Origin: Candidatus Sulfotelmatobacter sp.
GTDB lineage: Bacteria > Acidobacteriota > Terriglobia > Terriglobales > Acidobacteriaceae
Direction of reading: 5' to 3'
Length of the DNA: 41,484 nucleotides
Assembly: GCA_030041415.1 (NCBI GenBank)
Contig: JASHNX010000297.1
Coordinates: forward strand, 1-41,484
Every line of letters begins with the position of its first letter. Within the stretch, counting starts at the first letter, position 1. The notes beneath the pieces are model-generated. The model saw only the letters and a list, made by a program, of their open reading frames with translations. It had not been told where the DNA came from and did not search any database. Made by a program: the position numbers and the translations under genes. This document shows, one piece after another, positions 1,730 through 30,697 of the stretch.

Positions 1730-2350
1730 TAGAAGTTCGTACCTGCGAAGAACCGCAGGTTCATCGTTAACCCACTTGGGTGCAGTGTAGCAGGAATACA
1801 ATCTGCGGGGTGTTGCTGGAGTATTAAAAAGAGTGTTGCTCCGAAATATTCCGCGGCTTCCTGGCGGTCAATGGGCCGGGTCGGCTGTTCTGAAACAAGG
1901 GCCCAGAGCAGAGTCAAACATGGGGACGGAAAGAGAAAATCGGCTTTAAATTCGATTATAATGCCGCAAAGCACAGATACCGGCGGCTGCAGAGTGAGGT
2001 TCCCCACTCACCGTGTCTGCGGCGCGGCTAAACTCTCTGGAACCCTAATTGTTCAATCCTCGAAACCAGTTGACAGAGAGGGTCCGCCCGGAGACTTTTC
2101 GGAGCGGGAAGGGTTATGCTCGAAAGGGCGTTCTTACGAAATACATCGGGCATGGCTTAATTTTCATTCAGAAAGCAAGAATGCGGCGGCCGGTCCCGAT
2201 GGCACGGTATGCGCAGTGGGGTAACGCGGATTGCGACGCGATTCTCATATAGAATCTATTTCCGGATTTCGATTCTGGTGCAAGAACGGTCAGCCCGGGC
2301 GAGCTATTGAGACGAAATGTAGTCGGAACTACCAAAAGGTAGTAGAGCAC
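1730..2350. other. Intergenic region between divergent ROK kinase and exopolysaccharide locus
   Basis: About 620 bases lie between two divergently transcribed units and should contain both promoters. Open frames here have no recognisable protein character and overlap one another in several frames. A short inverted repeat, GAGTG with CACTC, lies around 1993-2010. A weak sigma-54-like element is listed separately. No RNA gene or mobile element was recognised. Confidence 0.5.
2200..2214 (+). promoter_or_regulatory. Possible sigma-54-type -24/-12 element
   Basis: The sequence TGGCAC, five bases, then GCGC matches the GG (-24) and GC (-12) core of the RpoN consensus (TGGCAC-N5-TTGC) with the correct spacing but two mismatches in the -12 part. 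It lies about 140 bases upstream of the export gene. Sigma-54 control of exopolysaccharide loci is known in other bacteria. One degenerate match can easily occur by chance. Confidence 0.2.
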
Positions 2351-5300
2351 ATGATGAATTCGAAAAAGCCTGATCGAACGAGAAATTTGGGGAGGTTACA
2401 CACGCTGTCCTTTCTGGGGTGCGCGGTTATGCTGTGCGCGACCGGATTCGCTCAGAGTCGGCAACAGAAACCGGTTTCGCAGTCCGAACTGGCGCGGCAA
2501 AACATGCAGCACGTGGCAGCGAACACCGAGCAACTGGCGCTGATTCTGCACCGTGATCCGGGCTTGTTGGTGGAAGTGAAGCGCTGGATGGCGAAAGACG
2601 CCACCGATCACGGACAGATCATCACCGAAGGGGATCTTGCGGAAGAAGCGATTTTCGACCGACTGGAAAACGACGTGACCTTCCGCTCTGTGGTCACGGA
2701 CATCGTGCAGAGGTATGGGTACCTGACGCCAATGGTGAATCCTGACTCGCCTCTGGCGAAAGAGCAGGAGTTGTTGATTCAGGAGCGGGTGAAGTGGGTG
2801 AGTGAAGAGGAAGCTGCCGACCGCGAAAAGATGAAGGCAGCACAAGAGAAGCTGGCCGAAGAGCAGCAGGCTTGCGATCCTCGCTCAACGAACTGCGCCG
2901 TGCAGAAGACCGGGGCCCCGATGGCTCCGCAGTGGCAGGAGCAACAGCAGCCGCCGGGAATGTTCAACCCTGGACAGCAAGTTCCTGGGTTAGAGCCTCA
3001 GATTGAAGTGCCTCCGACGGTTCCGTATGCGCCGACGGAGCCGGCAGCACCTGGTAATGGCACGGACCTGCTGCGAACCAGCGGACCAAGTAATGGCTTA
3101 GGTTTCGGGCAAGGGCAATCGAATGCGGGCGGTGAACTTGCGTCGCCTTATGCTGAAGAATCCGACGGCGGTTCGGGAGGAAGCGACGAGAGCGGATATC
3201 AGCGGCGCGGCTATGCGGGCGGGACACGATCGCAGGGTGGAGGAGGGTTCGACGAGTTCGGCGACTTGTCGCTCGATTCCGACTTTGGCGTGAGCGGGTC
3301 GAACCAAGGATTTGGCCAGGGAATGTATGGGAGTTCGAACGCATACGGATATGACGGATATGGCAGCTCCTACGGAAACGGCTACTATCCGTATGGGACG
3401 CCGTACAGCGCTTACGGGAACGGCGCTTATGGTTCCAGTTACGGGAACGGCCAGGGAAACAACTACAATCTGAGCTACGACAACGCTGTGTTGCGCGAGC
3501 AGGCCCGGCGGGCGCGGCAGGCAACGACACCAAGCCAGCGGCTGGTACGACGGTCGAATCCTTATCAAGAAATTCCATCGCTTTACGACATGTATTTGCA
3601 GGCGGCGGAGCGTCCCCCGGCGGTGCAACGCTTCGGTATGGAAGTGTTTGTGAACGGAACGCGCGACCTGCAGAGCATTCCCATGGATTTGCCGGTCGGT
3701 CCGGACTACGTGCTCGGGCCGGGGGATGGCGTCAAGGTCACCATGTGGGGCGGGGTCTCGCGGCCGTTTTACCAGGTTGTGGACCACCAGGGGCGCATCA
3801 ATCTGCCGGAAGCCGGGCCAGTGCTGGTTGCCGGCAAATCGTTGGCCGAAGTGCAAGAACTAGTGCAGAAAACCTTGCGCACGCAGTTCCGCGACGTTTC
3901 CGCCGACATATCCCTCTCGCGATTGAGGTCAATTCGGGTTTATGTGGTCGGAGATGTGGTGCGACCGGGAGCATACGATATCGGGTCGCTTTCGACACCG
4001 CTGAACGCGCTCTTCGCCGCGGGCGGCCCTACGGGACAGGGATCTTTACGAATTCTGGAGCAATACCGCGGAAATCAGCTCGTGCAAACCGTCGATGTTT
4101 ACGATTTGCTGTTGCATGGAGTGAAGGGAAATATTGCGCGGCTGGAGGATGGGGATACGGTGATGGCTCCGCCGCTCGGCGGGGAGATCACGATTGAAGG
4201 GATGGTACGGCGGCCGGCGATTTACGAGCTGAAAGACGAGAAAACATTGTCTGACGCGCTGGAACTGGCGGGAGGGTTGCTGCCGACCGCGACTCTGCGG
4301 CATGTAGAAGTGCAGCGAGTGATTGCGCATCAGAAAGAAACGATGCTGAGTCTGAACGTTGCTGCGGACGACAACTCGGACGATGTCACCAAACAGCTGG
4401 AATCCTTCAAGATTCAGGATGGCGACAAAATTCGGATTTTCCCGATTGCACCCTATAACCAGGATGCGGTGTATCTGGAAGGCCATGTGATCCGGCCGGG
4501 AAAATATTCCTACAGGCAGGGAATGCGGGTTACTGACCTGGTTGGGACTTACAAAGATCTGTTGCCCGAGCCGGCCCTGCAATATGGCGAGATCATCCGA
4601 TTGAGCTTGCCGGATTACAGGCCAGTAGTTCAGAGCTTCAGCGTGGCTGAAGCGCTAGTTGATCCCCAGAATGCGCCGGAGCTCGAGCCGCTCGACACGG
4701 TGCAGATTTTCGGGCGATACGACTTTGAAAATCCGCCTACGGTTTCAGTACTGGGCGATGTGCGCGCTCCAGGAACGTACCGGACTTCGGGAGATATTCA
4801 CATTAGCGACGCGATCCGCCTGGCTGGCGGATTGGGTCCAGATGCTCAAACCGAAGATGCGCAGGTGTTCCGGTTCATGCCGGATAGCACTTTGAAAATT
4901 CTGAACGTAAAGCTGAGTACGGCGCTTGAGGGAAATCCGACGGATAACATCATGCTGACCTCCAGGGACCGTGTGCTGGTGCACAAAAATGCAGCGGCTG
5001 CGGATCCTGCGACGGTGCTGGTAAAGGGTGATGTTGAACGGCCCGGGCGTTACCCGCTGGCTGCGCAGATGACGGTTTCTGACCTGATCGCAGCGGCGGG
5101 CGGATTGAAGCAGAGCGCAGATCTGCAGACCGCCGATCTCACCCACTATGTGTGGAAAGACGACCAGCAAGTCAGCGGTGACGAGCAGCGCGTTTCACTG
5201 GCGAAAGCCATGAGCGGCGACCCGGGTTCGAATGAAGTCTTGAACAACGGCGATGTTCTGACTATACGGCAAGTGCCGGGGTGGGAAGATTTGGGTGCTT

Positions 5301-6058
5301 CGATTGTGGTGCGCGGAGAAGTCGTGCACCCCGGAACGTACGGAATAAAGCCGGGTGAGCGATTGAGCTCGGTGCTAGCGAGGGCTGGCGGATTCTCGCC
5401 CAACGCGTATCCCTATGGCGCCGTGCTGGTGCGCAGGGAGGTGCAGAAACTGGAGATGAGATCCTACGCGGAACTGGTGCAGCGGGTTCGCGAGCAGCAG
5501 ACGAACCTGAAGCTGACCGCGACAAGCACCACCGATCCGGATCAGAAACTCTCGGCAGAGTCAGCGCTGACGCAGTGGCAAACGACACTGGACAATCTGG
5601 TCAGCTCGCCACCCACAGGGCGAGTTACGATTCAGGTTTCGCAGGACATCAAGGCGTGGGCCAACAGTTCACGCGATATTACAGTCAGGGCGGGAGATAT
5701 TCTAACGATTCCGAAGCGGCCAAGCTACGTATTGGTTCAGGGGCAAGTGTACGGTCCGACTGCTGTTTCGTACCGGCCAGGCAAGAGCGCGCGCTGGTAT
5801 TTGACGCAAGCCGGCGGCACTACCAACATGGCAAACAAGCGAGCTACGTTCGTCATTCGCGCGAACGGGACGGTGATCAGCAATCACAGCGGAGGGTGGG
5901 CGACGGGCGACTCTCTGGGCGTGTCTCTGCAACCGGGAGACATGGTGGTGGTTCCGGAAAAGGCACTGGGCGGGCCACCGATCTGGAAGGCAATATTTGC
6001 GAATGCGCAGGTGCTGGCTTCGCTTACCACCAGCGCGGTTCTAGTGGCCTCGTATTAA
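2351..6058 (+). CDS. Polysaccharide export outer-membrane protein with about seven SLBB domains (Wza-like)
   Basis: Predicted outer-membrane/periplasmic export protein of 1235 residues, about three times the length of E. coli Wza. A signal peptide (hydrophobic stretch LSFLGCAVMLCATGFA) is followed by a Gln/Pro-rich and then a Gly/Tyr/Ser-rich low-complexity region (about residues 267-377). A Poly_export domain starts near residue 447 (VLGPGDGVKV). SLBB-type beta-grasp repeats with a GxVxxPGxY-like core begin near residues 526, 610, 705, 796, 887, 983 and 1125. The C-terminus ends in a hydrophobic/amphipathic segment that could be the membrane-crossing helix of Wza-type channels. The frame is open from 2231, but 2351 (or 2354) places the signal peptide at the N-terminus. 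It leads the plus-strand locus, 10 bases before the PAP2-Wzi gene, and probably forms the exit channel for the glycan. Confidence 0.9.
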   Translation: MMNSKKPDRTRNLGRLHTLSFLGCAVMLCATGFAQSRQQKPVSQSELARQNMQHVAANTEQLALILHRDPGLLVEVKRWMAKDATDHGQIITEGDLAEEAIFDRLENDVTFRSVVTDIVQRYGYLTPMVNPDSPLAKEQELLIQERVKWVSEEEAADREKMKAAQEKLAEEQQACDPRSTNCAVQKTGAPMAPQWQEQQQPPGMFNPGQQVPGLEPQIEVPPTVPYAPTEPAAPGNGTDLLRTSGPSNGLGFGQGQSNAGGELASPYAEESDGGSGGSDESGYQRRGYAGGTRSQGGGGFDEFGDLSLDSDFGVSGSNQGFGQGMYGSSNAYGYDGYGSSYGNGYYPYGTPYSAYGNGAYGSSYGNGQGNNYNLSYDNAVLREQARRARQATTPSQRLVRRSNPYQEIPSLYDMYLQAAERPPAVQRFGMEVFVNGTRDLQSIPMDLPVGPDYVLGPGDGVKVTMWGGVSRPFYQVVDHQGRINLPEAGPVLVAGKSLAEVQELVQKTLRTQFRDVSADISLSRLRSIRVYVVGDVVRPGAYDIGSLSTPLNALFAAGGPTGQGSLRILEQYRGNQLVQTVDVYDLLLHGVKGNIARLEDGDTVMAPPLGGEITIEGMVRRPAIYELKDEKTLSDALELAGGLLPTATLRHVEVQRVIAHQKETMLSLNVAADDNSDDVTKQLESFKIQDGDKIRIFPIAPYNQDAVYLEGHVIRPGKYSYRQGMRVTDLVGTYKDLLPEPALQYGEIIRLSLPDYRPVVQSFSVAEALVDPQNAPELEPLDTVQIFGRYDFENPPTVSVLGDVRAPGTYRTSGDIHISDAIRLAGGLGPDAQTEDAQVFRFMPDSTLKILNVKLSTALEGNPTDNIMLTSRDRVLVHKNAAAADPATVLVKGDVERPGRYPLAAQMTVSDLIAAAGGLKQSADLQTADLTHYVWKDDQQVSGDEQRVSLAKAMSGDPGSNEVLNNGDVLTIRQVPGWEDLGASIVVRGEVVHPGTYGIKPGERLSSVLARAGGFSPNAYPYGAVLVRREVQKLEMRSYAELVQRVREQQTNLKLTATSTTDPDQKLSAESALTQWQTTLDNLVSSPPTGRVTIQVSQDIKAWANSSRDITVRAGDILTIPKRPSYVLVQGQVYGPTAVSYRPGKSARWYLTQAGGTTNMANKRATFVIRANGTVISNHSGGWATGDSLGVSLQPGDMVVVPEKALGGPPIWKAIFANAQVLASLTTSAVLVASY

Positions 6059-6068
6059 GGACTCGTGC

Positions 6069-8711
6069 GTGATTCGAAAGCTGGTTCGCAGGCTGCGGAT
6101 GATGTGCTTAGTGGCGAGCACGGCGGTTGCGGTCGGGCAGTCGGTGCGGAAACCAGGGCCTATGGCTGATGTGAACAGCGGAGCTCGGGTCGGGGAGAGC
6201 ACAAATCAGACTCGAGCTGGTCAGCAGCCGGAGGCCACCGATACGGGAGATTTACCCGATAATCCTCAACCCAGGCAGGGTTCCGGGCATTCTGAAAACA
6301 CACTTCTTGGTTTGCCGCGACAGCTTTTGCACGATCAGATTGGTATGTGGACGAGCCCCGAGAGATTCAAGCTGTCGGATGCGACGTGGCTGGTTCCGGC
6401 GGGAGGGTTCGCGGCAGCGCTATTCGCGACCGACAGCTCCGTGAGTCGACATCTTTCAAACAAAACCAGCACTCTGAACACCTATCTCCACGTCTCTGAT
6501 TACGGCACCTACTCGATGGTGGGCGGAGCTGCCGGAGTGTATTTCTTGGGACTGATGTCGCAGAACGAGCACGAGCGCGAAACCGGCTTTCTGAGCGGCG
6601 AAGCGACCATCGACGGGCTTGCAGTGGTAGAGGCGCTCAAATATGCGACCGGGCGCCAGCGTCCGTTTCAGGATAGTGGCGACGGGAAATTCTTCAAAAG
6701 CGGGACTTCGTTTCCTTCGGAGCATGCTGAAATTTCATGGGCAATCGCGGGAATGTTTGCCCATGAATATCCGAGTCCGTTCATGAAGTTCCTTGCGTAC
6801 GGTGCGGCGACGGCGATCAGCGCGACCCGAGTCACGGCGAAACAGCATTTTCCTTCTGATGTGTTTGTGGGCGCCGTGATCGGATATCTGACGAGCGAAT
6901 ACGTTTACCGCAAGCATCACGATCCGGACTTGCCGGGTGGACCGTGGGAGCTTCCCGGTGTGCGACAGGATAGTCCCGGACACTGGCAAGCGAAAGACAT
7001 GGGTTCGCCTTATGTGCCGCCGGATAACTGGGTCTATCCGGCGATCGATCGTTTGACGGCGATGGGTTACATCCACACGGGGTTTGCGGATATGCGCCCG
7101 TGGACCCGCATGGAATGTGCGCGCCAGATTGAGGAAGCGGCGGACAGCATTTCTCAGGATGTCGCTGACGAAAGTGAAGCGGCGCGGGCGTTGCGCGAAT
7201 TGCAAATTGAGTTCAAGCCAGAGTTGAATTTGCTGGGCGGCGGAGATAACGCTGGTTTTCGTGTGGAATCGGTTTACACGCGGGGCATGGAAATTACTGG
7301 CAAGCCGCTCACGGATAGTTATCACTTTGGTGAGACGATTACGAATGATTTTGGCCGACCCAAGGCGCAAGGATTCAATGACGTTGCGGGACTGTCGGGA
7401 TGGGCCGCGGATGGGCCGTTTGTAGTTTATGGGCGCGGCGAGTTTCAACATGCGCCATCGGCGCCAGCATTGCCGGCGACGGAGAGAAGCACAATTTCAA
7501 GTGAGGACTTCAGCCAGGTTGCGTACGAAGTCCCTAATGCGCCGGTTCCACCCGACATGCCCATCCCTGCGTTTAACGAAGGACGTTTTCTCGATGCTTA
7601 CGTGGGAATGAATTTTTCCGATTGGCAGATTTCCTACGGAAATCAAAGCTTGTGGTGGGGGCCTTCGCAAGGTGGCCCTTTGATGTTCAGCGACAATGCG
7701 CAGCCGATGCGCATGTTCCGAGTGGACCGCGTAACGCCTTTCCGACTGCCGAGTTTTCTGAGAGTGCTTGGGCCGATGCGGATCGAGGGCTACGTTGGCC
7801 AGTATTCGGGCTACAATTTTGTGCTGACTCCTGCGGGTTTGTCTGGTGCTTACGGAGTTGCACTGAATCCTGAGCCGATCGACCATGGCGAGCGTATCAG
7901 CTTTAAGCCCACATCGAACTTGGAGGTCGGGCTCTCACGAACCACTGACTATGGAGGACCAGGATATCCGCTAACTCTGCACAACTTTTTCAGAAGCGTG
8001 TTTTCGACTGGAAACACAGGGCCAGGCAATGCTCTGAAGCCAGGAGCGCGACGTTCAGGGCTGGACTTTAGCTATCGGCTCCCGGGAATGCGCAATGGGG
8101 CAACTTTTTATGCAGAGGGTATGGCGCAGCATGACGAAATTTCGCCGCTGCTGGGACCCGACGTTGCGTGTTGGTTCGCGGGCCTGTACATTCCGACCTT
8201 ACCCGGAGTTCGCAAAATGGATTTGCGGTTGGAGGGAGGGTATACAGATCCTCCCTATGCGGCGGGCGATGTTGCCCATGGCGCCTTTTATTGGGATGAT
8301 ACGTGGATTACGGGATTCCAAAACGCGGGTCATTTGATGGGAAGTTGGATGGGCCGCCAAGGGCAGGGGACGCAGGCGTGGACGACATATTGGCTGAACC
8401 ACCGAAACAAACTGCAGTTCGGATTCCGGCATCAAGAAGTAAGCCGGCAATTGGTTACCGACGGTTTCCAGCCTGACGGACTTCCCAAGACCGCGGTTCC
8501 GCCAGGAGGAAGCCTGACCGATGCGAATGTGCGCGCCGAGTTCTGGGTGGGATCGACGTTCAGCGTTTCGGGAATGGCGCAATATGAGACGTGGCACTAT
8601 CCGGTTATTGCTTTGGGGAGGCAATCGAATGTAACTTCCATGATTGAAGTAAGCTTCTGGCCGAAGCCATTGCGCGGAAAAAATCAGAATGGAGATGTTG
8701 GGCAGCAGTAA
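6069..8711 (+). CDS. PAP2 phosphatase fused to a Wzi-like capsule assembly beta-barrel
   Basis: An 880-residue exported fusion protein. A signal-peptide-like N-terminus is followed by a PAP2 acid phosphatase domain with all three motifs: KYATGRQRP near residue 190, FPSEH near 216 and SATRVTAKQHFPSD near 251-264. A short SLH-like stretch (about 318-357) ending in RPWTRMECARQIEE follows. The remainder (about 390-870) resembles the Wzi outer-membrane barrel, with alternating aromatic/glycine strands and SFKPTSNLEVGLSR. Wzi helps attach capsule at the cell surface. PAP2 enzymes dephosphorylate lipid phosphates such as undecaprenyl pyrophosphate. The GTG start has an AAGGA ribosome site eight bases upstream, just after the preceding stop. 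The fusion suggests that carrier-lipid recycling is tied to surface assembly, which is inference. Confidence 0.88.
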   Translation: MIRKLVRRLRMMCLVASTAVAVGQSVRKPGPMADVNSGARVGESTNQTRAGQQPEATDTGDLPDNPQPRQGSGHSENTLLGLPRQLLHDQIGMWTSPERFKLSDATWLVPAGGFAAALFATDSSVSRHLSNKTSTLNTYLHVSDYGTYSMVGGAAGVYFLGLMSQNEHERETGFLSGEATIDGLAVVEALKYATGRQRPFQDSGDGKFFKSGTSFPSEHAEISWAIAGMFAHEYPSPFMKFLAYGAATAISATRVTAKQHFPSDVFVGAVIGYLTSEYVYRKHHDPDLPGGPWELPGVRQDSPGHWQAKDMGSPYVPPDNWVYPAIDRLTAMGYIHTGFADMRPWTRMECARQIEEAADSISQDVADESEAARALRELQIEFKPELNLLGGGDNAGFRVESVYTRGMEITGKPLTDSYHFGETITNDFGRPKAQGFNDVAGLSGWAADGPFVVYGRGEFQHAPSAPALPATERSTISSEDFSQVAYEVPNAPVPPDMPIPAFNEGRFLDAYVGMNFSDWQISYGNQSLWWGPSQGGPLMFSDNAQPMRMFRVDRVTPFRLPSFLRVLGPMRIEGYVGQYSGYNFVLTPAGLSGAYGVALNPEPIDHGERISFKPTSNLEVGLSRTTDYGGPGYPLTLHNFFRSVFSTGNTGPGNALKPGARRSGLDFSYRLPGMRNGATFYAEGMAQHDEISPLLGPDVACWFAGLYIPTLPGVRKMDLRLEGGYTDPPYAAGDVAHGAFYWDDTWITGFQNAGHLMGSWMGRQGQGTQAWTTYWLNHRNKLQFGFRHQEVSRQLVTDGFQPDGLPKTAVPPGGSLTDANVRAEFWVGSTFSVSGMAQYETWHYPVIALGRQSNVTSMIEVSFWPKPLRGKNQNGDVGQQ

Positions 8712-8737: not shown

Positions 8738-10093
8738 ATGGCGACGAGAGAAATCACGAAGCGGGACGCGAGATTTGTCGATCCAGACCTTGAGCGGGAA
8801 ATTCTCGTTGAAACCGAGGATGCTTCGAGCCGCAGGCAGCGCCTTATCGGGCGCATTTCGTTGCTTTGGCAGGAGAGACGGTTTTTATTTCGTTGCGCGG
8901 TGATCGCATTTGCAGCTTCGTCGATCGTCGCGTTTCTCATTCCCGTGCGTTATACATCCACGACTCGGCTGATGCCGCCGGATCAGAGCGGCCAGGGAAT
9001 CACCTCGATGTTGTCCGCCCTCGGGAAGAATGGCGATCTGGGCGCCGTTGGCGAGCAATTGCTCGGGCTGAAAACGTCCGGCGATTTGTTCATTGGCGTG
9101 ATCCATAGCCGCACCGTGCAAGACGATCTCATTGATAAATTCGGCTTGCGCAAGGCGTATGGCGTACGCCGGTATCAGGATGCGCGAAAAATTCTCGACA
9201 GTGTTACCGACGTTTCCTCCGAACGCAAGAGCGGAATTATTACGATTAAGGTCAGCGACCACAGTAGCGACCGGGCTGCCGCGATGGCGCGCGAGTATGT
9301 GGCGGCGCTGAACAATGTTGTCATCAACCAGAATACGGGTTCAGCGCACAAAGAGAGAGTGTTCTTAGAAGATCGCCTGTCCCAAGTGCAGAAAGATCTA
9401 GAAGCCGCGGAAAAAGATTTCAGCCAATTCGCGAGCCAGAATACAGCCCTCGACGTAAAAGAGCAGGGGCGCACAATGCTCGTCGCGGCCGCAGATTTGG
9501 AAGGTCAACTGATAGCGGCGGAGACCCAACTCCAGGGTTTGCAGCAAATCTATGCGCCTGAGAATGTGCGGATTCGTTCGCTACAGGCACGAATCGACGA
9601 GTATCGGCGGCAGTTGCAGAAAATGGGAGGCAGAGTTCCTGCCGCTGGCGGTGCAACGTCCGCGGGCGATCAGGTGGGCGAATCGGCGGAGCAGAAGCCG
9701 GATTTGTATCCTTCAATTAGACAGCTTCCCGTGTTGGGTGTGACTTGGTCTGACCTTTACCGCCGAACCAAGATACAGGAGACGGTTTTCGAGACGCTGA
9801 CCAAGCAATATGAGCTTGCGAAAGTGGAGGAGGCCAGAGAAACGCCCAGTGTAAAGGTTCTGGACGCTGCCGATGTTCCCGAGATCAAATCGTTCCCGCC
9901 TCGAACGCTTCTGGTTGGAACGACAATTGTGGTGGTTTTCTTTGGCGCCTGCGCCTGGATTCTAGTACTGGCCCGCTGGCAGGAAATTGATCCGGCGGAT
10001 CCGGGAAAAAGACTTGTGAATGAAATCCTTCAGACTATTCACGGAACCTTGAGGGGAATTTACGATAGAACATGGCATCGAAAGGGCGCGTGA
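8738..10093 (+). CDS. Chain-length determinant protein (Wzz/GNVR family, no kinase domain)
   Basis: Inner-membrane polysaccharide co-polymerase of 451 residues. Transmembrane helices lie at about 49-70 and 386-412. A large periplasmic region between them contains a coiled-coil stretch (about 205-300) rich in KDLEAAEKDF-type heptads. The PPDQSG sequence after TM1 is typical of the Wzz domain. The protein ends in a short cytoplasmic tail with no Walker A motif, so it lacks the BY-kinase domain found in Wzc-type proteins, and no separate kinase gene is in the window. It would set the length of the glycan made by the Wzy-type enzyme encoded at 14.2 kb. It starts 26 bases after the PAP2-Wzi gene and is probably in the same transcript. 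Confidence 0.9.
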   Translation: MATREITKRDARFVDPDLEREILVETEDASSRRQRLIGRISLLWQERRFLFRCAVIAFAASSIVAFLIPVRYTSTTRLMPPDQSGQGITSMLSALGKNGDLGAVGEQLLGLKTSGDLFIGVIHSRTVQDDLIDKFGLRKAYGVRRYQDARKILDSVTDVSSERKSGIITIKVSDHSSDRAAAMAREYVAALNNVVINQNTGSAHKERVFLEDRLSQVQKDLEAAEKDFSQFASQNTALDVKEQGRTMLVAAADLEGQLIAAETQLQGLQQIYAPENVRIRSLQARIDEYRRQLQKMGGRVPAAGGATSAGDQVGESAEQKPDLYPSIRQLPVLGVTWSDLYRRTKIQETVFETLTKQYELAKVEEARETPSVKVLDAADVPEIKSFPPRTLLVGTTIVVVFFGACAWILVLARWQEIDPADPGKRLVNEILQTIHGTLRGIYDRTWHRKGA

Positions 10094-17657: not shown

Positions 17658-19238
17658 TCAATATTGCCAAGTTACCCCCGGATACAGGCTGGGCACGCGA
17701 TATCCCCGATAAGCAGTGGCGTTGACCGGCGTAATGTCCATTTGCCAGACCACTTGTGGCGCCGAAGTCGCAGTCACTTCCTCAATCCTGGAGGCTACAT
17801 TTGGACTGGGTGGGAGCGCCATAGCATTCGAATCAAACTCAACATTTCCGTTGGCAAACTGGTTGACGCTCCCACCGAATGTCGAGTAGTAGAGTATGGG
17901 CTCAGCCCATTGCAAATTGGCGACCATCGAACTTTGGTCGACTTGAAATAGCGTCGGACGCGAATAACAAGGTGGAAACGGCAGGCCCGAACGTGGATCC
18001 ACACAAACCTCGCCTGTCGTATTGAGGACTCGTTCATTTCCGTTATCCCAGACGCCGAGATTATCCAGGTATCCACTTTGGCTTAACAAGATTGGAAAAT
18101 GCTGGAACGAAAACCACTCACTGGGGTCGTCCGAAGGCACGCCGTTTACAGTCAAAGCGAAGTCGCCCTGATAACCCAGGCGCCACAGAATGTCTCCGGA
18201 TCCAGTTCCGTTGTTGTAGTCGATTTTGATAACCCAAGACTGATGACGGACGGACAGTAGTATATTGCCGTCGTTGGGAGAATATAAAAGCGTGTTGCTA
18301 TGGGTCCAGTCGGGCAAGCCGAACAAGTGCCGATTGATGTCAAGCCAATCGAAGCCGTTCCACGCCCAGACGGGATTAAAGTTCTGGTCCAAATCGACAA
18401 CGCCGTCTCCGAGGACCTGAATAGTTCCAGGATAACCGGGGAGATCCGTGAAACTCTTGGTGACGTTCACAAGGGCCAGCACATGACCATTCGCGAGGGG
18501 AAGCACGTCATGGTGGAATGACGTCGGCACAAAATCGAAGCCTGCGGCCTGCATCTTTTGCTGCAGCGTCGGAATAGTGATTTGTTGAATGATGTTCCCG
18601 GCCAGATCGATTTGGACGAGACCATCCGCAGCGGCGACGCCAGGGGAAACAATCATGACGATGTTCCCGTTAGGAAGGAATTTGAAGGCGAAGGGGAAGA
18701 ATCCTTGCCCGGTGTTGTAATACCAGATCACATTGCCATCGCGGTCTGTAAAAAGAGCTGGGTAATTCTGGACGGTTATGGTTAGCATTTCTATTCCCGG
18801 GTTCTCGGTGGAACTTAGAGAGGGGGAGGGTCTAGTTACCGTAATACCCGGAAAGGGGAGGGATGAGGGAAGGGCGCCCGTTGCGAAGGTCGTGTCTGAA
18901 GTAGTGAGGGTACTGTTCCCGCATTGAACCTGGGCGCGCATGTGATAGGTGGTCGATGCTTTCATTCCCGCTACTTCAACAGAAGTCGGCTCGTAGAAAC
19001 CTTTCGTTGGATACCAAGAGGTGCTTCTTCCGTAATCGGTCGTCTCACCAAACTCAACCATGACCTGTCCAATGCACTGTTCCTGGACTGTGTAGATCGC
19101 CACCAAAGGGTTCTGCGTCTTTGATACAGTTCCTGTCGCTAAGGAAGGGATCGAACCGGCATCGCACCCTGGCATCAAACCACACACTACGGCGACTGCC
19201 ATTGCAAGAATGGCTCTTACGGCAAACAATGCTCTCAT
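17658..19238 (-). CDS. Aryl-sulfate sulfotransferase (ASST family), predicted lipoprotein, copy 1
   Basis: A 526-residue exported protein. The N-terminal hydrophobic segment ends in LMPGC (Cys25), an imperfect lipobox. A fibronectin/PAP-N-like domain follows (about 30-122, with VEFGETTDYGRST). The rest is a beta-propeller of ASST type. DWTHSN at 310-315 and SVRHQS at 329-334 place His313, Asn315 and Arg331 with the spacing of His356, Asn358 and Arg374 in E. coli ASST. His380 in FSFQHF is the candidate sulfate-accepting histidine. ASSTs move sulfate from a phenolic sulfate ester to another acceptor without PAPS. GAGGAAAA lies just before the ATG. It is a close paralog of the gene at 26152-27726 and is transcribed against its neighbours. 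The real donor and acceptor are unknown. Confidence 0.85.
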   Translation of the reverse strand: MRALFAVRAILAMAVAVVCGLMPGCDAGSIPSLATGTVSKTQNPLVAIYTVQEQCIGQVMVEFGETTDYGRSTSWYPTKGFYEPTSVEVAGMKASTTYHMRAQVQCGNSTLTTSDTTFATGALPSSLPFPGITVTRPSPSLSSTENPGIEMLTITVQNYPALFTDRDGNVIWYYNTGQGFFPFAFKFLPNGNIVMIVSPGVAAADGLVQIDLAGNIIQQITIPTLQQKMQAAGFDFVPTSFHHDVLPLANGHVLALVNVTKSFTDLPGYPGTIQVLGDGVVDLDQNFNPVWAWNGFDWLDINRHLFGLPDWTHSNTLLYSPNDGNILLSVRHQSWVIKIDYNNGTGSGDILWRLGYQGDFALTVNGVPSDDPSEWFSFQHFPILLSQSGYLDNLGVWDNGNERVLNTTGEVCVDPRSGLPFPPCYSRPTLFQVDQSSMVANLQWAEPILYYSTFGGSVNQFANGNVEFDSNAMALPPSPNVASRIEEVTATSAPQVVWQMDITPVNATAYRGYRVPSLYPGVTWQY

Positions 19239-26151: not shown

Positions 26152-27726
26152 TCAGTAGGGCCAAGTCACTCCGTTGTAGAGACTTGGAACCCGATACGCG
26201 CGATAGGCAGGGAGATTAACTGGAGACACCTCCATTTGCCAAACGATCTCGGGGTTCAGCGTGTAAGTTACTTCCTCAACAATGGAAGCTACTTCCGGGC
26301 TGGGTGGGAGTGCCATGGCATTCGACTCGAACTCGACGTTTCCGTTGGAGAATTGATTGACGCCCCCGCCAAAGGTTGAGTAATAGTAAACAGGGTCAGC
26401 CCATTGCAAATTCGCAACCATGGAACTTTCGTCGACCTGAAATAAGGTTGCTCGAGAATAACAAGGGGGGTAAGTGTTGCCGGAGCGCGGGTCCTCACAA
26501 ACCTCACCCGTTTCAGCATTGAGGATGCGAAGATCGCCATTGTCCCAGACGGCAAGATTATCCTGGGAGCCGCTTTGGCTAAGCAGTCTCGGGAAATGCT
26601 GAAACGAAAACCACTCACTGGGATCATCCGTGGGGACGCCATCCACGGTCAAAGCGAAATCTCCCTGATAACCCAAGTGCCACAGAATATTTCCGCTACC
26701 TGCACCGTTGCTGTAATCGATTTTCAGAATCCACGATTGATGGCGAATCGACAAGAAGAGGTTGCCGTCATCGGGCGAGTAGAACAGTGCGTTACTGTGA
26801 GTCCAGTCCGGCAAACCGAACAAATGGCGGTTGATATCGAGGTGGTCAAAGGTGTTCCATCCCCAAACCGGATTCCAGTTCTGATCTAAGTCCACAATCG
26901 CATCGCCGAGAACGCGGATGGTTCCGGGATAGCCGGGAAGGTTCGTGAAATCCTTAAAGCAATACACGAGGGTAACGAGGTGACCATTCGGGAGCGGCAG
27001 GAAATCATGGTGGAAACCAAACGGTATGAAATCGAAGCCGCCGGCGTTCGCCATCCTGTGTTGCAAGTCAATACTGGTCAACTCTCGAATAGTATTTCCC
27101 GCAAGATCAACCTCTACCAAATTCGAAAAAGTTGCCCCGTCCGTAACGATCAATAGTATGTTTCCATCGGGAAGCAATTTGAATGGAAACGCAAAACCAG
27201 TCGGACCGTTATCGTAATACCAGATGACATTGCCGTCGCGGTCGGTGAAAAAAGCAGGTGTGCCCCTGACAGCTACGTCGATCGATTCGATTCCTGGATT
27301 TTCCGTGGAGGTCAATGAGGGAGTAGGACGGCTCACGACTATTTGGGGAAGGGCTGTTGAGACAGAAGAAGGCAACGGGCCCGTTGTGAAGGTTGAATCA
27401 GGACCCGTTGAGATGGTCTCCTGACCGGTGCATTGCTCCTGAGCGCGCATGTGGTAGGTAGTCGATGCCATCATGCCCGCAACCAAGATCGAAGTCGGAA
27501 CGTTGTTGCCATTCACTGGATACCAGGCGGTGCTTCTTCCATAATCGGTGGTCGGACCAAACTCCACGCTGACCTGGCCGGGACATTCCGTCGAGATTGT
27601 GTAAAGTGCCACCAAGGGATTCTGGGTGCTTGCTACTTTTCCCAGAGCGAGAGAGGGGATCGAACCTGCCCCGCATCCTGCCATCAAAGCACACGCAATC
27701 AACAACGACACAAACAAAACCTTCAT
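26152..27726 (-). CDS. Aryl-sulfate sulfotransferase (ASST family), predicted lipoprotein, copy 2
   Basis: A 524-residue paralog of the gene at 17658-19238, similar along its whole length. The signal peptide ends in ALMAGC (Cys18), a better lipobox than in copy 1. A fibronectin/PAP-N-like domain and an ASST propeller follow. His310/Asn312 in DWTHSN, Arg328 in SIRHQS and His377 in FSFQHF match the catalytic set of the family. The ATG at 27726 was chosen because GGGGAAAAAG precedes it at the place equivalent to GAGGAAAA of copy 1. GTG at 27738 would add four residues. It faces away from the type III polyketide synthase gene across a shared 0.5 kb intergenic region, so joint regulation is possible. 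Donor and acceptor are not known. Confidence 0.86.
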   Translation of the reverse strand: MKVLFVSLLIACALMAGCGAGSIPSLALGKVASTQNPLVALYTISTECPGQVSVEFGPTTDYGRSTAWYPVNGNNVPTSILVAGMMASTTYHMRAQEQCTGQETISTGPDSTFTTGPLPSSVSTALPQIVVSRPTPSLTSTENPGIESIDVAVRGTPAFFTDRDGNVIWYYDNGPTGFAFPFKLLPDGNILLIVTDGATFSNLVEVDLAGNTIRELTSIDLQHRMANAGGFDFIPFGFHHDFLPLPNGHLVTLVYCFKDFTNLPGYPGTIRVLGDAIVDLDQNWNPVWGWNTFDHLDINRHLFGLPDWTHSNALFYSPDDGNLFLSIRHQSWILKIDYSNGAGSGNILWHLGYQGDFALTVDGVPTDDPSEWFSFQHFPRLLSQSGSQDNLAVWDNGDLRILNAETGEVCEDPRSGNTYPPCYSRATLFQVDESSMVANLQWADPVYYYSTFGGGVNQFSNGNVEFESNAMALPPSPEVASIVEEVTYTLNPEIVWQMEVSPVNLPAYRAYRVPSLYNGVTWPY

Positions 27727-28222
27727 CTTTTTCCCCACCGGGAATTGGAGTTCAGAATGATTCCACGGACGTCAGAGAATTGCCCGCGGTGCTTGCAATC
27801 AAGGATTAGTAGCAATGGTTCCCCGGCTTGGCAATATCCGGATCACTTCTGCGAAGCCGTCTGCGATGGTCCCACTCCAGCGGCACTTCATCCATTGATC
27901 TGAAATATATCTCAAACGAAGAAAAACACCAACAAAGTTGAGAGAAGTAAAGATTGAAATTAGGGGTTCACACATCCGCAGAAGTGGATGAAGGCTCTGA
28001 AACCCAAGCTGGGCAGTGGTTTCAGACGCAAATCATTAGAAACGGTTCTGTCCTTAATAAAACTTTACAGAACAGGCTGGGTTTTGATCCGCACCACTGG
28101 TCACAATAAATTAGAGTGTGGCGATATTGACGGCTGGAAATCTTTCGGTATTATGACAGCAGGCTGCGATAAGAAAAGATTAAGAATGAAGATGGCAGTC
28201 CGAAAGCTTGATTGGGGGGTTG
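27727..28222. other. Divergent intergenic region between ASST copy 2 and the polyketide synthase
   Basis: About 500 bases, AT-richer than the genes on either side, should contain promoters for both directions. It holds an inverted repeat at 28045-28073 (listed separately) and a weaker TCTCAA/TTGAGA pair (27910-27943). An 82-codon frame (27988-28236) has no family signature and runs into the synthase gene, so it was not called. Confidence 0.4.
28045..28073. repeat. Inverted repeat GTTCTGT-N15-ACAGAAC, possible operator
   Basis: Perfect seven-base arms (28045-28051 and 28067-28073) are separated by fifteen AT-rich bases, about 150 bases upstream of the polyketide synthase start. The 22-base centre-to-centre distance is two helical turns, as in dimer-binding operators. 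It could also form a weak hairpin. No matching regulator was identified. Confidence 0.3.
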
Positions 28223-29491
28223 ATGAGGTTGCCTGAACAAGGGCAAGTTTTGGACGGACCATATGAAGCGGAAGCAAGTTCTCGGGCGCGCACATTTCCG
28301 ATCGTCTTTGCCGACTTTAAGCCGGTCACTCTAAAGCCGCCCGTTCCGCAAGAGGAACTGCTCGACTGTCTGGCACACTGGATGTCTGTCGCGCGATGCG
28401 TCAGTCACGGCATCGAATCGGAAGAGCAAAGAACTGCGGTATTCAGGAACACGAAGAAGCGGGTCGACAGGTACTGCGCGTCTTCCGCGGAACATATCTC
28501 ACAGCGCCAGGTTTGTATTTACGATACGGCGGATACGCGGCGGAATGGGCATTTCGAATTTCTTGCGCCTCCGGTCCCATACACAAACATCTACGACAAT
28601 CCGGCCGGCAAAACCTGGGACAAGCGGCGCGTTCTCTTTGAGCAGGCGGCACTCACCGCGTTTGAGCGTTGTTACGAAGAAAGCAAGCAGCCGCCCGACG
28701 AGATCATCCATGTCACTTGCACCGGGTATGCGTCGCCGAGCCCCGCTCAAAGTTTTTTGTCGAAGCAGGGTTGGCTTCACACCGGTGTGACCCACGCCTA
28801 CCACATGGGGTGCTATGGCGCCTTTCCGGCGATCCGTACGGCCTGTGGGCTGTTGGCAGCATCGTACGCGACCTTGCCAGAGCCGAAAGAGCGGGTCGAT
28901 ATCGTGCATACGGAATATTTGTCGCTGCATGTCGACTTTCTGACGCATGAGCCCGGCAACTATGTGATGAACGCGCTCTTCGGCGACGGATTCATCAAAT
29001 ACTCGGCTTATCCTCTGGCGAATTTCCCGTCAGCGAACAAGAGAGGCTTGAAGCTTGTTGCGATCCAAGAACGCCTCATCCCGAGTTCCCTGGATGAAAT
29101 GACCTTGAAGCCGGGGTTGTACTCCTTCGACGAGACAGTTTCGAAAAATGTTCCTGACATAATTTATGTCCACGTAAAGGACTTCGTAATCGATCTCTGC
29201 CAGCAAGCGGGTATCGATTTCGATGCCGAGAAAGAGGATCTCGTTTACGCGATGCATCCTGGGGGTCCGGCAATCGTGAGCAAAGTCCGCGAAGCGCTTG
29301 GTCTCGATGAGAGCCACATGTGGGTCAGCCGGGAGATTCTGGACCAGCACGGCAATATGGCCTCCGCCACGGCTCCTTACATGTGGCAAAAAATCGTGGA
29401 AACGGATGCGATTCCAACCGGTGCGAAAATCATCAGCGTGGGTTTCGGCCCCGGTTTGACTGTAATCGGCGCGGTGTTCGAGAAGATCTGA
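28223..29491 (+). CDS. Type III polyketide synthase (chalcone synthase-like)
   Basis: A 422-residue thiolase-fold enzyme with the complete triad of type III polyketide synthases: Cys197 in HMGCYGAFPA, His345 in AMHPGGPAIV and Asn378 in QHGNMASATAPYM. GFGPGLTVIGAVFE near the C-terminus is the family closing motif. These enzymes condense malonyl-CoA units on a CoA starter to give pyrones, resorcinols or related phenolic products. The ATG at 28223 follows a run of six G residues at good ribosome-site spacing. The TTG at 28208 would add five residues. It is somewhat longer than most bacterial members because of the N-terminus. The PAPS-type sulfotransferase gene follows after 48 bases, which suggests that its product is sulfated. 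Product and starter are unknown. Confidence 0.87.
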   Translation: MRLPEQGQVLDGPYEAEASSRARTFPIVFADFKPVTLKPPVPQEELLDCLAHWMSVARCVSHGIESEEQRTAVFRNTKKRVDRYCASSAEHISQRQVCIYDTADTRRNGHFEFLAPPVPYTNIYDNPAGKTWDKRRVLFEQAALTAFERCYEESKQPPDEIIHVTCTGYASPSPAQSFLSKQGWLHTGVTHAYHMGCYGAFPAIRTACGLLAASYATLPEPKERVDIVHTEYLSLHVDFLTHEPGNYVMNALFGDGFIKYSAYPLANFPSANKRGLKLVAIQERLIPSSLDEMTLKPGLYSFDETVSKNVPDIIYVHVKDFVIDLCQQAGIDFDAEKEDLVYAMHPGGPAIVSKVREALGLDESHMWVSREILDQHGNMASATAPYMWQKIVETDAIPTGAKIISVGFGPGLTVIGAVFEKI

Positions 29492-29539: not shown

Positions 29540-30697
29540 ATGGAACAGGTTGTCACGTCTCAGTCCAAGCTGCATCCTCCGCCGAAAGCGGAGCGGTTCT
29601 CCGTGCCCGCTGGACTTTTTTGGTTTGTCAGGTTCGTTAATGCAACGGCGCCACTCTTCGTGGAGCTTGGGCAGCTCGAGTCAAAATCGCTGGCGTCGCG
29701 AATGGCGGCCATCCCCATCGACCGGCCGATTTATATTCTGGGCTTGCCGCGTGCCGGGACCACGATCTCGGCCCAAATGCTCAGCGAGCACCCGGATGTA
29801 ACCACGCATCACTATTCGGATTTTGCACTGCCCTACACACCATGGTGGTGGAACCGGCTGTTTCCAAAGCTTCCGATCCACGCTCTGAAGTCACCCGTAG
29901 AACGCGTCAACCGCGATCGTTTGAAGGTAACTCGTGACAGTACGGAGGGTGTGGAGGAAATGATTTGGCTGCGCTTTTTTCGGCAGCTGCATGATCCCAG
30001 CCGCTGCAATGTTCTGGACGACACGACGGCAAATTCGGACTTCGAGAAATTCTTTAAAGATCACATCCGCAAGTTGCTTTTGGTGAGGGGGCGTTCGCGT
30101 TACGTATCCAAAAACAATCCTTGCGTTACGCGGATGCGCTACTTGCGCCGTATTTTTCCTGATGCGCGGTTCCTGTTGTATGTTCGCAATCCTATTGATC
30201 ATGCGGCGTCGGTGGTCAAGCAGGATCGACTTTTTACAGAGTTAGCGCGTGAAGATCAGCGGCTGATGAGAATGAACAGGCTGACCGGGTTCCATGAATT
30301 CGGCCCGAATTTTGTTCCAGTCAATGTCGGAAACAATGCGACTACCCAGGAGATCTGCGGCTGCCGCGATGAAGCACGCCAGGTACGCGCCCGCGCGCTT
30401 CAGTGGGCTTCAGTGTTTGGTTTCGTCATTGATCAGCTGGAGCATGACCCCGAGCTGGCTCGCGCGGTGTGTGTCGTGCGTTACGAAGACCTGTGCGTAA
30501 AACCCGAGGAAACGATTGATCGCATACTCGCTCACACCGGCCTTTCTCGAGAGGCTTTCGCCCCCGCACGTGCCAAGTACATCTCCAAACTTTCTCTGCC
30601 CGACTATTACCGTCCGAATTTCAGCACAGAAGAGAAAGCTGAAATCATCTCGCTGACGAAAGATGTGGCAGCACATTTTGGATACAGCCTCGCTTGA
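29540..30697 (+). CDS. PAPS-dependent sulfotransferase
   Basis: A 385-residue cytoplasmic enzyme of the sulfotransferase family. The 5'-phosphosulfate loop LGLPRAGTT is at 67-75. The 3'-phosphate-binding segment LLYVRNPIDHAASVV is at 212-226, with the Arg and Ser expected to bind PAPS. KNNPC at about 191-195 is the usual intervening motif. It would transfer sulfate from PAPS to a hydroxyl group. Because it follows the type III polyketide synthase by 48 bases in the same direction, the phenol or enol of that product is the most likely acceptor, although a sugar or lipid acceptor is not excluded. No PAPS-synthesis genes are present here. Confidence 0.88.
   Translation: MEQVVTSQSKLHPPPKAERFSVPAGLFWFVRFVNATAPLFVELGQLESKSLASRMAAIPIDRPIYILGLPRAGTTISAQMLSEHPDVTTHHYSDFALPYTPWWWNRLFPKLPIHALKSPVERVNRDRLKVTRDSTEGVEEMIWLRFFRQLHDPSRCNVLDDTTANSDFEKFFKDHIRKLLLVRGRSRYVSKNNPCVTRMRYLRRIFPDARFLLYVRNPIDHAASVVKQDRLFTELAREDQRLMRMNRLTGFHEFGPNFVPVNVGNNATTQEICGCRDEARQVRARALQWASVFGFVIDQLEHDPELARAVCVVRYEDLCVKPEETIDRILAHTGLSREAFAPARAKYISKLSLPDYYRPNFSTEEKAEIISLTKDVAAHFGYSLA

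Follow-up and report, generated by a model that had tools for sequence, protein, structure and literature searches.

A conserved fusion of a PAP2 phosphatase domain to a Wzi-type barrel beside polysaccharide export genes in acidobacteria

Analysis of a 41,484-nucleotide stretch of DNA from Candidatus Sulfotelmatobacter sp., a soil bacterium of the Acidobacteriota (assembly GCA_030041415.1, contig JASHNX010000297.1, positions 1 to 41,484; hereafter the window, meaning this whole stretch) identified a gene that joins a PAP2 phosphatase domain to a Wzi-type outer-membrane protein. The gene occupies positions 6069-8711 of the forward strand, as do all of its features given below, and is one uninterrupted frame of 880 residues with a GTG start. 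Its product consists of a signal peptide, a linker, a PAP2 domain and a complete Wzi made up of a helical plug and an 18-strand barrel. The signal peptide (6069-6137), recognized by reading the sequence and by a heuristic, is probably of the type handled by the Sec pathway and signal peptidase I (Sec/SPI), with cleavage near residue 23/24 (AVG-QS). The PAP2 domain has a helical core and spans residues about 85-290 (6321-6938), as delimited by the Pfam match, an AlphaFold2 (AF2) model of the domain and alignment to LpxE (6ebu). It is followed by the plug at residues about 313-395 (7005-7253) and by the barrel (7254-8657). Both Pfam matches are well over their cut-offs, with PAP2 (PF01569) at residues 183-283 (E 6.3e-20, 71.7 bits against a cut-off of 27.2) and Caps_assemb_Wzi (PF14052) at residues 410-854 (E 6.4e-89, 299.1 bits against 30.1). 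Thus, the claim of an initial annotation that a PAP2 domain and a Wzi-type barrel share one 880-residue chain is borne out. The fusion is genuine and conserved, and these E-values, its conservation in relatives and a low ratio of nonsynonymous to synonymous substitution (dN/dS) in the PAP2 part place it beyond chance.

The canonical wording of the three PAP2 motifs is KX6RP-PSGH-SRX5HX3D. As read from an alignment of 71 fusions, on which all motif counts given here are based, motif 1 of the window protein is K191-x6-R198-P199 (6639-6665), motif 2 is P216-S217-E218-H219 (6714-6725) and motif 3 is R254-x5-H260-x3-D264 (6828-6860). The initial annotation described all three motifs as intact, which holds for the six catalytic residues R198, S217, H219, R254, H260 and D264 but not for the wording, as motif 2 reads PSEH instead of PSGH and a T, not an S, precedes R254. 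None of the 71 fusions deviates at R254, H260 or D264, R198 and S217 are each kept in 70 and H219 in 68, and all six occur together in 66; the flanking K191 and P199 are found in 58 and 71, respectively. The residue at position 218 of motif 2 is E in 47 fusions, D in nine, Q in five, V in three, N in two, G in two and I, T or M in one each. As a separate observation, motif 1 reads SP in place of RP in two loci (L071 and L137). For the PAP2 part, dN/dS is 0.117, 0.088 and 0.057 against relatives L061, L062 and L063, values that are rough given that synonymous sites are near saturation.

The distribution of the fusion was analyzed at three levels. In the window's own genome together with 60 relatives (61 genomes), PF14052 gave 46 matches, 33 of which lie in frames of 826-972 residues; every one of these 33 long frames also has a PF01569 match, and in one of them (G021) the barrel is interrupted near its end. 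The remaining 13 matches occur in shorter frames, some of which begin or stop at a contig edge, and a 632-residue frame (G014:C31) that covers query residues 312-866 resembles a Wzi without PAP2. A scan of a named collection, using patterns drawn from this fusion family, gave 460 stretches that matched a pattern, 158 of which encode a relative. Among the best 80 of these 158, which were kept, a single frame takes in no less than 98% of the matched region in 79 loci and 88.5% in L074. Some frames run off a contig end (L076, L081, L109, L127 and L137), that of L128 begins at residue 158, and undetermined bases occur in L074, L079 and L115. The closest named relatives belong to Candidatus Sulfotelmatobacter, Acidobacteriaceae and Terriglobales/Terriglobia. 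A search of the phylum Acidobacteriota found Wzi over the cut-off in 63 of 396 sampled genomes, with the 30 loci of the best phylum matches comprising two fusions (L164 and L168) and 28 cases of plug and barrel without PAP2. Fifteen further long frames picked on purpose added 13 fusions, one frame lacking PAP2 (L189) and one that is incomplete in the stretch taken (L183). Fused and stand-alone Wzi therefore coexist in the family, and the fusion occurs in several genera.

The initial annotation had considered that a sequencing error might have joined two genes, in which case separate genes would be expected in all close relatives. An artefact of sequencing or assembly does find an echo in one relative (G032), where the PAP2 and Wzi parts lie in overlapping frames. 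However, single long frames recur in many independent assemblies, all 33 of the long Wzi frames in the 61 genomes hold a PAP2 domain, and we regard an artefact as ruled out for practical purposes. Phage records, in which a mobile origin was looked for, contain no match to the PAP2 part, and the 11 matching records of a plasmid collection all match from residue 312 on, none of them over 80% of the query.

The Wzi part of the chain is complete. An AF2 model of the fusion (71 sequences; mean predicted local distance difference test score, pLDDT, 87.5; predicted template-modelling score, pTM, 0.83) contains 18 barrel strands of at least eight residues as assigned by DSSP. Escherichia coli Wzi (2ynk) aligns to this model with a Z score of 34.2 and a root-mean-square deviation (rmsd) of 2.8 over 421 of 441 residues, plug included, and VIA-align places model residues 238-792 (protein residues 313-867) on 2ynk residues 24-477. 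The segment ahead of the barrel had initially been described as a stretch resembling an S-layer homology (SLH) domain, and residues 316-390 do match the S-layer-homology chain 8bz2 weakly (E 0.0035-0.005), while no SLH model of Pfam matched the fusion protein at E<=0.01. When the fusions were used to make a profile of the segment, it matched ahead of the barrel in 28 of 28 loci with a stand-alone Wzi (within L142-L171); a second, partial barrel frame at the edge of L142 shows no plug. A direct sequence match to the 2ynk plug scores below chance (-3.8), and so the assignment is carried by the structural alignment and by the stand-alone Wzi loci. On these two grounds we favour Wzi's own plug over a separate SLH module as the explanation of the SLH-like stretch, although the plug may itself be SLH-like. 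Excerpts of a 2025 review place the helical bundle of E. coli Wzi in the periplasm and report that its deletion raises capsule release (PMC12220298), and the PAP2 domain would therefore join the periplasmic end of Wzi.

Genes for polysaccharide export lie on both sides of the fusion. Upstream, a gene for a polysaccharide export (OPX) protein (2231-6058, forward strand), recognized by Pfam matches to Poly_export and five SLBB stretches, stops 10 bases before the fusion. Downstream, a gene for a Wzz/KpsE-type polysaccharide co-polymerase (8738-10093, forward strand) begins 26 bases past it and is followed by glycosyltransferases, methyltransferases and an ABC-2 permease with a Wzt_C ATPase. Consequently, the region is a locus for polysaccharide synthesis and export. 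Among the 75 loci with at least 700 bases upstream, 55 have a same-strand OPX gene immediately before the fusion, which is a lower bound as L113, in which OPX stops 4 bases before the frame, was missed by the distance rule. Of the 75 loci with room downstream, 53 have a same-strand Wzz gene no more than 1.2 kb beyond the fusion, both neighbours occur together in 48 loci, and in seven loci a Wzz gene is upstream and divergent. As to the neighbours themselves, the OPX protein of the window is long (1275 residues, five SLBB stretches), with an N-terminal part that by eye is rich in glycine and tyrosine and a C-terminal end that is hydrophobic and helix-like. The locus also contains two similar arylsulfotransferase-like genes on the reverse strand, one of which (17658-19238) matches PF05935 with an E-value of 6.3e-42 while the other (26152-27738) is alike by eye only. 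Additionally, a chalcone/stilbene-synthase-like gene (28208-29491, forward strand; PF02797) is followed by a sulfotransferase gene (29540-30697, forward strand; PF13469).

The initial annotation rightly asked where the phosphatase works, as it saw an enzyme that normally belongs to the inner membrane in conflict with a barrel of the outer one. We define a hydropathy peak as a 19-residue window with a Kyte-Doolittle mean of at least 1.6. Such peaks are absent from 68 of 71 fusion PAP2 domains, that of the window protein included, and number one in each of the other three; by this measure all ten conventional PAP2 controls (nine acidobacterial proteins with starts chosen by eye, and E. coli PgpB) have from one to five. 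No peak was found either in 17 of 20 further stand-alone relatives with signal-peptide-like starts as judged by eye. Insertion energies, calculated with a position-independent scale, are on average higher in the fusions than in the controls for all six helices, and the last helix separates the two cleanly (7.49 to 13.52 versus -1.01 to 3.26 kcal/mol). By a home-made heuristic that was run with no negative control, 74 of the 75 fusion frames have a signal-peptide-like start; a single frame (L097) contains a string resembling a lipobox.

Relationships among these domains were analyzed with a tree of 69 PAP2 domains, for which one in three of the 71 fusions was taken, together with 15 from other genera and with 21 secreted and nine inner-membrane PAP2s. 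All 39 sampled fusion PAP2s form one group (85/80) that is nested in the secreted PAP2s (93/85); these supports are modest and the tree tool gave a long-branch warning. The most basal fusion in the tree, L113, keeps PSGH, and G is present in motif 2 in 21 of 21 readable non-fused rows, with nine secreted rows lacking such a motif. As judged from these rows, the change in motif 2 goes with the fusion. Nine secreted stand-alone PAP2 proteins (L204-L212) without a match to F/Y-P-S/T/A-x-H may, as a side observation, be inactive or diverged. Since the fusions have a signal-peptide-like start, group with PAP2s that carry signal peptides and lack inner-membrane hydropathy, the conflict between inner and outer membrane is probably not real; the PAP2 domain probably sits at the inner face of the outer membrane, on the periplasmic side. 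An outer-membrane placement has also been argued for the LpxE protein of Porphyromonas gingivalis, which available portions of a recent report describe as a lipid A 1-phosphatase that carries a Sec/SPI signal, has PAP2 helices of low hydrophobicity and is predicted to end in a C-terminal barrel (PMC12704123).

Taken as a whole, these features are consistent with an outer-membrane PAP2-Wzi protein that acts as a periplasmic phosphatase on a phosphorylated lipid beside the OPX exporter, an explanation to which, reading from sequence and predicted structure, we assign a probability of about 0.5. The signal peptide would send the chain through Sec, and the plug and the 18-strand barrel, whose fold is predicted, would insert in the outer membrane as Wzi does. 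The N-terminal PAP2 domain would then lie on the periplasmic side of the outer membrane, next to its inner leaflet or partly embedded in it. There it would presumably function as a histidine phosphatase, its conserved residues suggesting, from what is known of the family, H260 as the nucleophile with assistance from H219, D264 and the arginines. The most likely substrate would be a phosphorylated lipid beside OPX, that is, a phosphate of lipid A or the phosphate that ends a lipid-linked polymer. The own genome contains LpxC, so lipid A is probably made and is thus a possible substrate, as is a surface glycan phosphate, the other substrate considered from the sequence. Removal of the phosphate might give the membrane surface, or the end of the polymer, a form suited to Wzi, the lectin that retains the sugar coat. 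A more specific proposal, which we offer tentatively and consider doubtful, is that PAP2 is the missing enzyme of coat attachment, which would hydrolyse or transfer the phosphate at the polymer end at the mouth of OPX and leave the Wzi part to receive the processed polymer at the surface. If true, carrier release and lectin retention would be done by one protein.

Several observations weigh against the explanation of a lipid phosphatase at the outer membrane. Twenty of the 75 loci fail the rule for an OPX gene directly upstream, and the ranges of insertion energy of fusions and controls overlap for the first five helices. One catalytic residue is missing in five of the 71 fusions (L070, L071, L077, L091 and L120), and motif 2 differs from PSGH in 69 of them. 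In the own genome no BacA match and no PF01569 match besides the fusion were found, which would fit a role in dephosphorylating undecaprenyl pyrophosphate (C55-PP). The C55-PP phosphatase PgpB of E. coli matches the PAP2 model with Z scores of 11.8 (8bm3) and lower, no better than soluble acid phosphatases, and so the fold does not prove a lipid substrate. Furthermore, the outer-membrane location of P. gingivalis LpxE is a prediction, and in the portions of that report available the authors keep an inner-membrane model (PMC12704123).

The AF2 model of the PAP2 domain alone (mean pLDDT 91.5) is nearest to Aquifex LpxE (6ebu; Z 16.1, rmsd 3.2, 153 residues aligned) and then to Bacillus PgpB (5jki; Z 15.7, rmsd 3.3, 173 aligned), with lower matches to human LPP1 (about 13) and class A acid phosphatases (about 12). 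The last of these raise the alternative that the domain is a soluble periplasmic phosphatase of the class A type, active on water-soluble compounds or phosphorylated sugars of the polymer, with Wzi as no more than an anchor. Such an enzyme would agree with the low hydropathy of the helices, with the equally polar character of 17 of the 20 secreted relatives, and with the derivation of soluble PAP2s from membrane ancestors that is described in excerpts of a review (PMC12419801); nevertheless, the membrane enzymes LpxE and Bacillus PgpB both score higher than the class A enzymes, and we consider this alternative unlikely. The model also resembles two transferases with a PAP2 fold, Aur1-Kei1 (9ivc; Z 12.2) and inositol phosphorylceramide synthase (9vj4; Z 12.0). 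The domain might by analogy transfer phosphate, or a phospho-glycan, between a carrier lipid and a lipid of the outer membrane and so attach the coat to the membrane, an idea with which the shift in motif 2 is in keeping, as G is retained in the non-fused rows and in the basal fusion L113. Hydrolases score higher than these transferases, however, and a transferase role appears rather improbable.

Two further alternatives concern location and activity. PAP2 could reside in the inner membrane and recycle C55-PP freed by export, with the protein bridging both membranes. The polysaccharide export neighbours, the inner-membrane-type PAP2 gene that precedes wzi in Klebsiella pneumoniae and E. coli, and the failure to find BacA or a second PF01569 match in the own genome all speak for such an arrangement, and the last of these suggests that the fusion is the organism's sole C55-PP phosphatase. 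That suggestion is weakened by the occurrence of BacA in 54 of the 61 genomes, including 31 of the 32 good ones, where the single good genome without it is the own genome; as this assembly has 350 contigs and 95.6% completeness, a gap in the assembly is the simpler reading. Bridging is also difficult to reconcile with the 68 of 71 domains that lack inner-membrane hydropathy and with the linker of about 30 residues between PAP2 and plug, which is short for the periplasm. Inner-membrane C55-PP is thus the less likely substrate, and a bridging protein is improbable. The PAP2 domain might finally be degenerate and mainly structural, aiding the plug or contacting the OPX exporter. The loss of the motif-2 glycine and of single catalytic residues would be expected of such a domain, but invariant H260, R254 and D264, the full six-residue set in 66 of 71 fusions and the low dN/dS of the PAP2 part make degeneracy improbable.

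An association of PAP2 with Wzi also exists in enterobacteria. In a K. pneumoniae record (L220, 1950-4972) a PAP2 gene directly precedes wzi and the export gene wza; in group 1 capsule loci of Klebsiella and E. coli such a gene goes by the name cpsACP. Of 5426 E. coli genomes, 1385 have some match to a query of 3,023 bases spanning this PAP2 gene and wzi, and 466 cover 80% or more of it; both genes are annotated in all 20 matches listed of the 466. Among seven wzi regions of the plasmid collection, a PAP2 gene before wzi occurs in the two of K. pneumoniae (annotated in L220, an unannotated frame in L223), and none was found in the other five (one E. coli, one other Klebsiella, Citrobacter, Marinobacter and Granulicella). 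The same gene order in E. coli group 1 capsule loci has been described, as far as the available text of that paper goes (PMC6128206). The enterobacterial PAP2 has 209 residues, a Pfam score of 41.6 bits and five hydropathy peaks; its three motifs do not fit the canonical wording, as a separate observation. A test for homology to the fusion PAP2 with the fusion profile detected no similarity. Given the five peaks and this lack of detectable similarity, the association of PAP2 with Wzi arose separately, twice independently. The enterobacterial neighbourhood lends support to a link in function between PAP2 activity and coats of the Wzi type. It would shift the odds a little from lipid A toward the polymer or its carrier, and slightly raises the standing of both the coat-attachment proposal and the inner-membrane alternative. 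The inner-membrane type of the enterobacterial enzyme also hints at carrier recycling there, which is a further point against an outer-membrane phosphatase.

The exact mechanism by which Gram-negative bacteria retain their capsules is not known, according to the portions of a 2025 review available (PMC12220298). A conserved chain of phosphatase and capsule lectin beside exporter genes would name a concrete enzyme and a concrete place for it. The fusion also carries the recent and debated P. gingivalis idea, a PAP2 enzyme at the outer membrane, over to acidobacteria, where the barrel is a different one. In addition, it links up with a long-standing gene order of Klebsiella and E. coli capsule loci, in which a PAP2 gene precedes wzi. 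Our literature search, which mostly stayed short of full-text depth, found no paper on a PAP2-Wzi fusion.

Comparison with known systems indicates which parts of this protein are familiar. The fusion and the Wzi of E. coli group 1 capsules (2ynk; PMC3791409, seen in excerpt) have the same plug and 18-strand barrel and an adjoining gene for a Wza-like exporter, while E. coli Wzi lacks the PAP2 domain; excerpts of a family survey give a size of 514 +/- 50 residues for Wzi and include no Acidobacteria (PMC4827864). A barrel gene beside an OPX gene is also the arrangement of composite OPX/beta-barrel translocons, as the available parts of two papers present them (PMC9601211, PMC9603273). One of these argues that the plug occludes Wzi and that its function is other than export (PMC9601211), and the other names plugless Wzi-type barrels as export candidates (PMC9603273). 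The barrel of the fusion differs from such translocons in retaining the Wzi plug, and the possibility that it is an open export pore is weakened because the plug is kept. The PAP2 core fold is common to Aquifex LpxE (6ebu) and Bacillus PgpB (5jki), whereas the fusion domain is distinguished from both by the absence of inner-membrane hydropathy and by PSEH in motif 2. Unlike the fusion PAP2, which mostly has no hydropathy peaks and lies in the Wzi chain, the enterobacterial PAP2 is a separate gene of inner-membrane type. A published parallel, as judged by described features, is P. gingivalis LpxE, which from the excerpts of its report (PMC12704123) is also one chain with a signal (assigned by heuristic in the fusion), a weakly hydrophobic N-terminal PAP2 domain, a predicted C-terminal barrel and a predicted place in the outer membrane. 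The C-terminal part of that LpxE has about 200 residues and eight predicted strands, in contrast to the complete 18-strand Wzi with plug of the fusion, whose gene, unlike that of P. gingivalis LpxE, lies within a polysaccharide export locus. Each half of the protein has precedents, and P. gingivalis provides one for a PAP2-barrel chain; a PAP2 domain on a complete, plugged Wzi had no counterpart in the literature searched and appears to be the new part.

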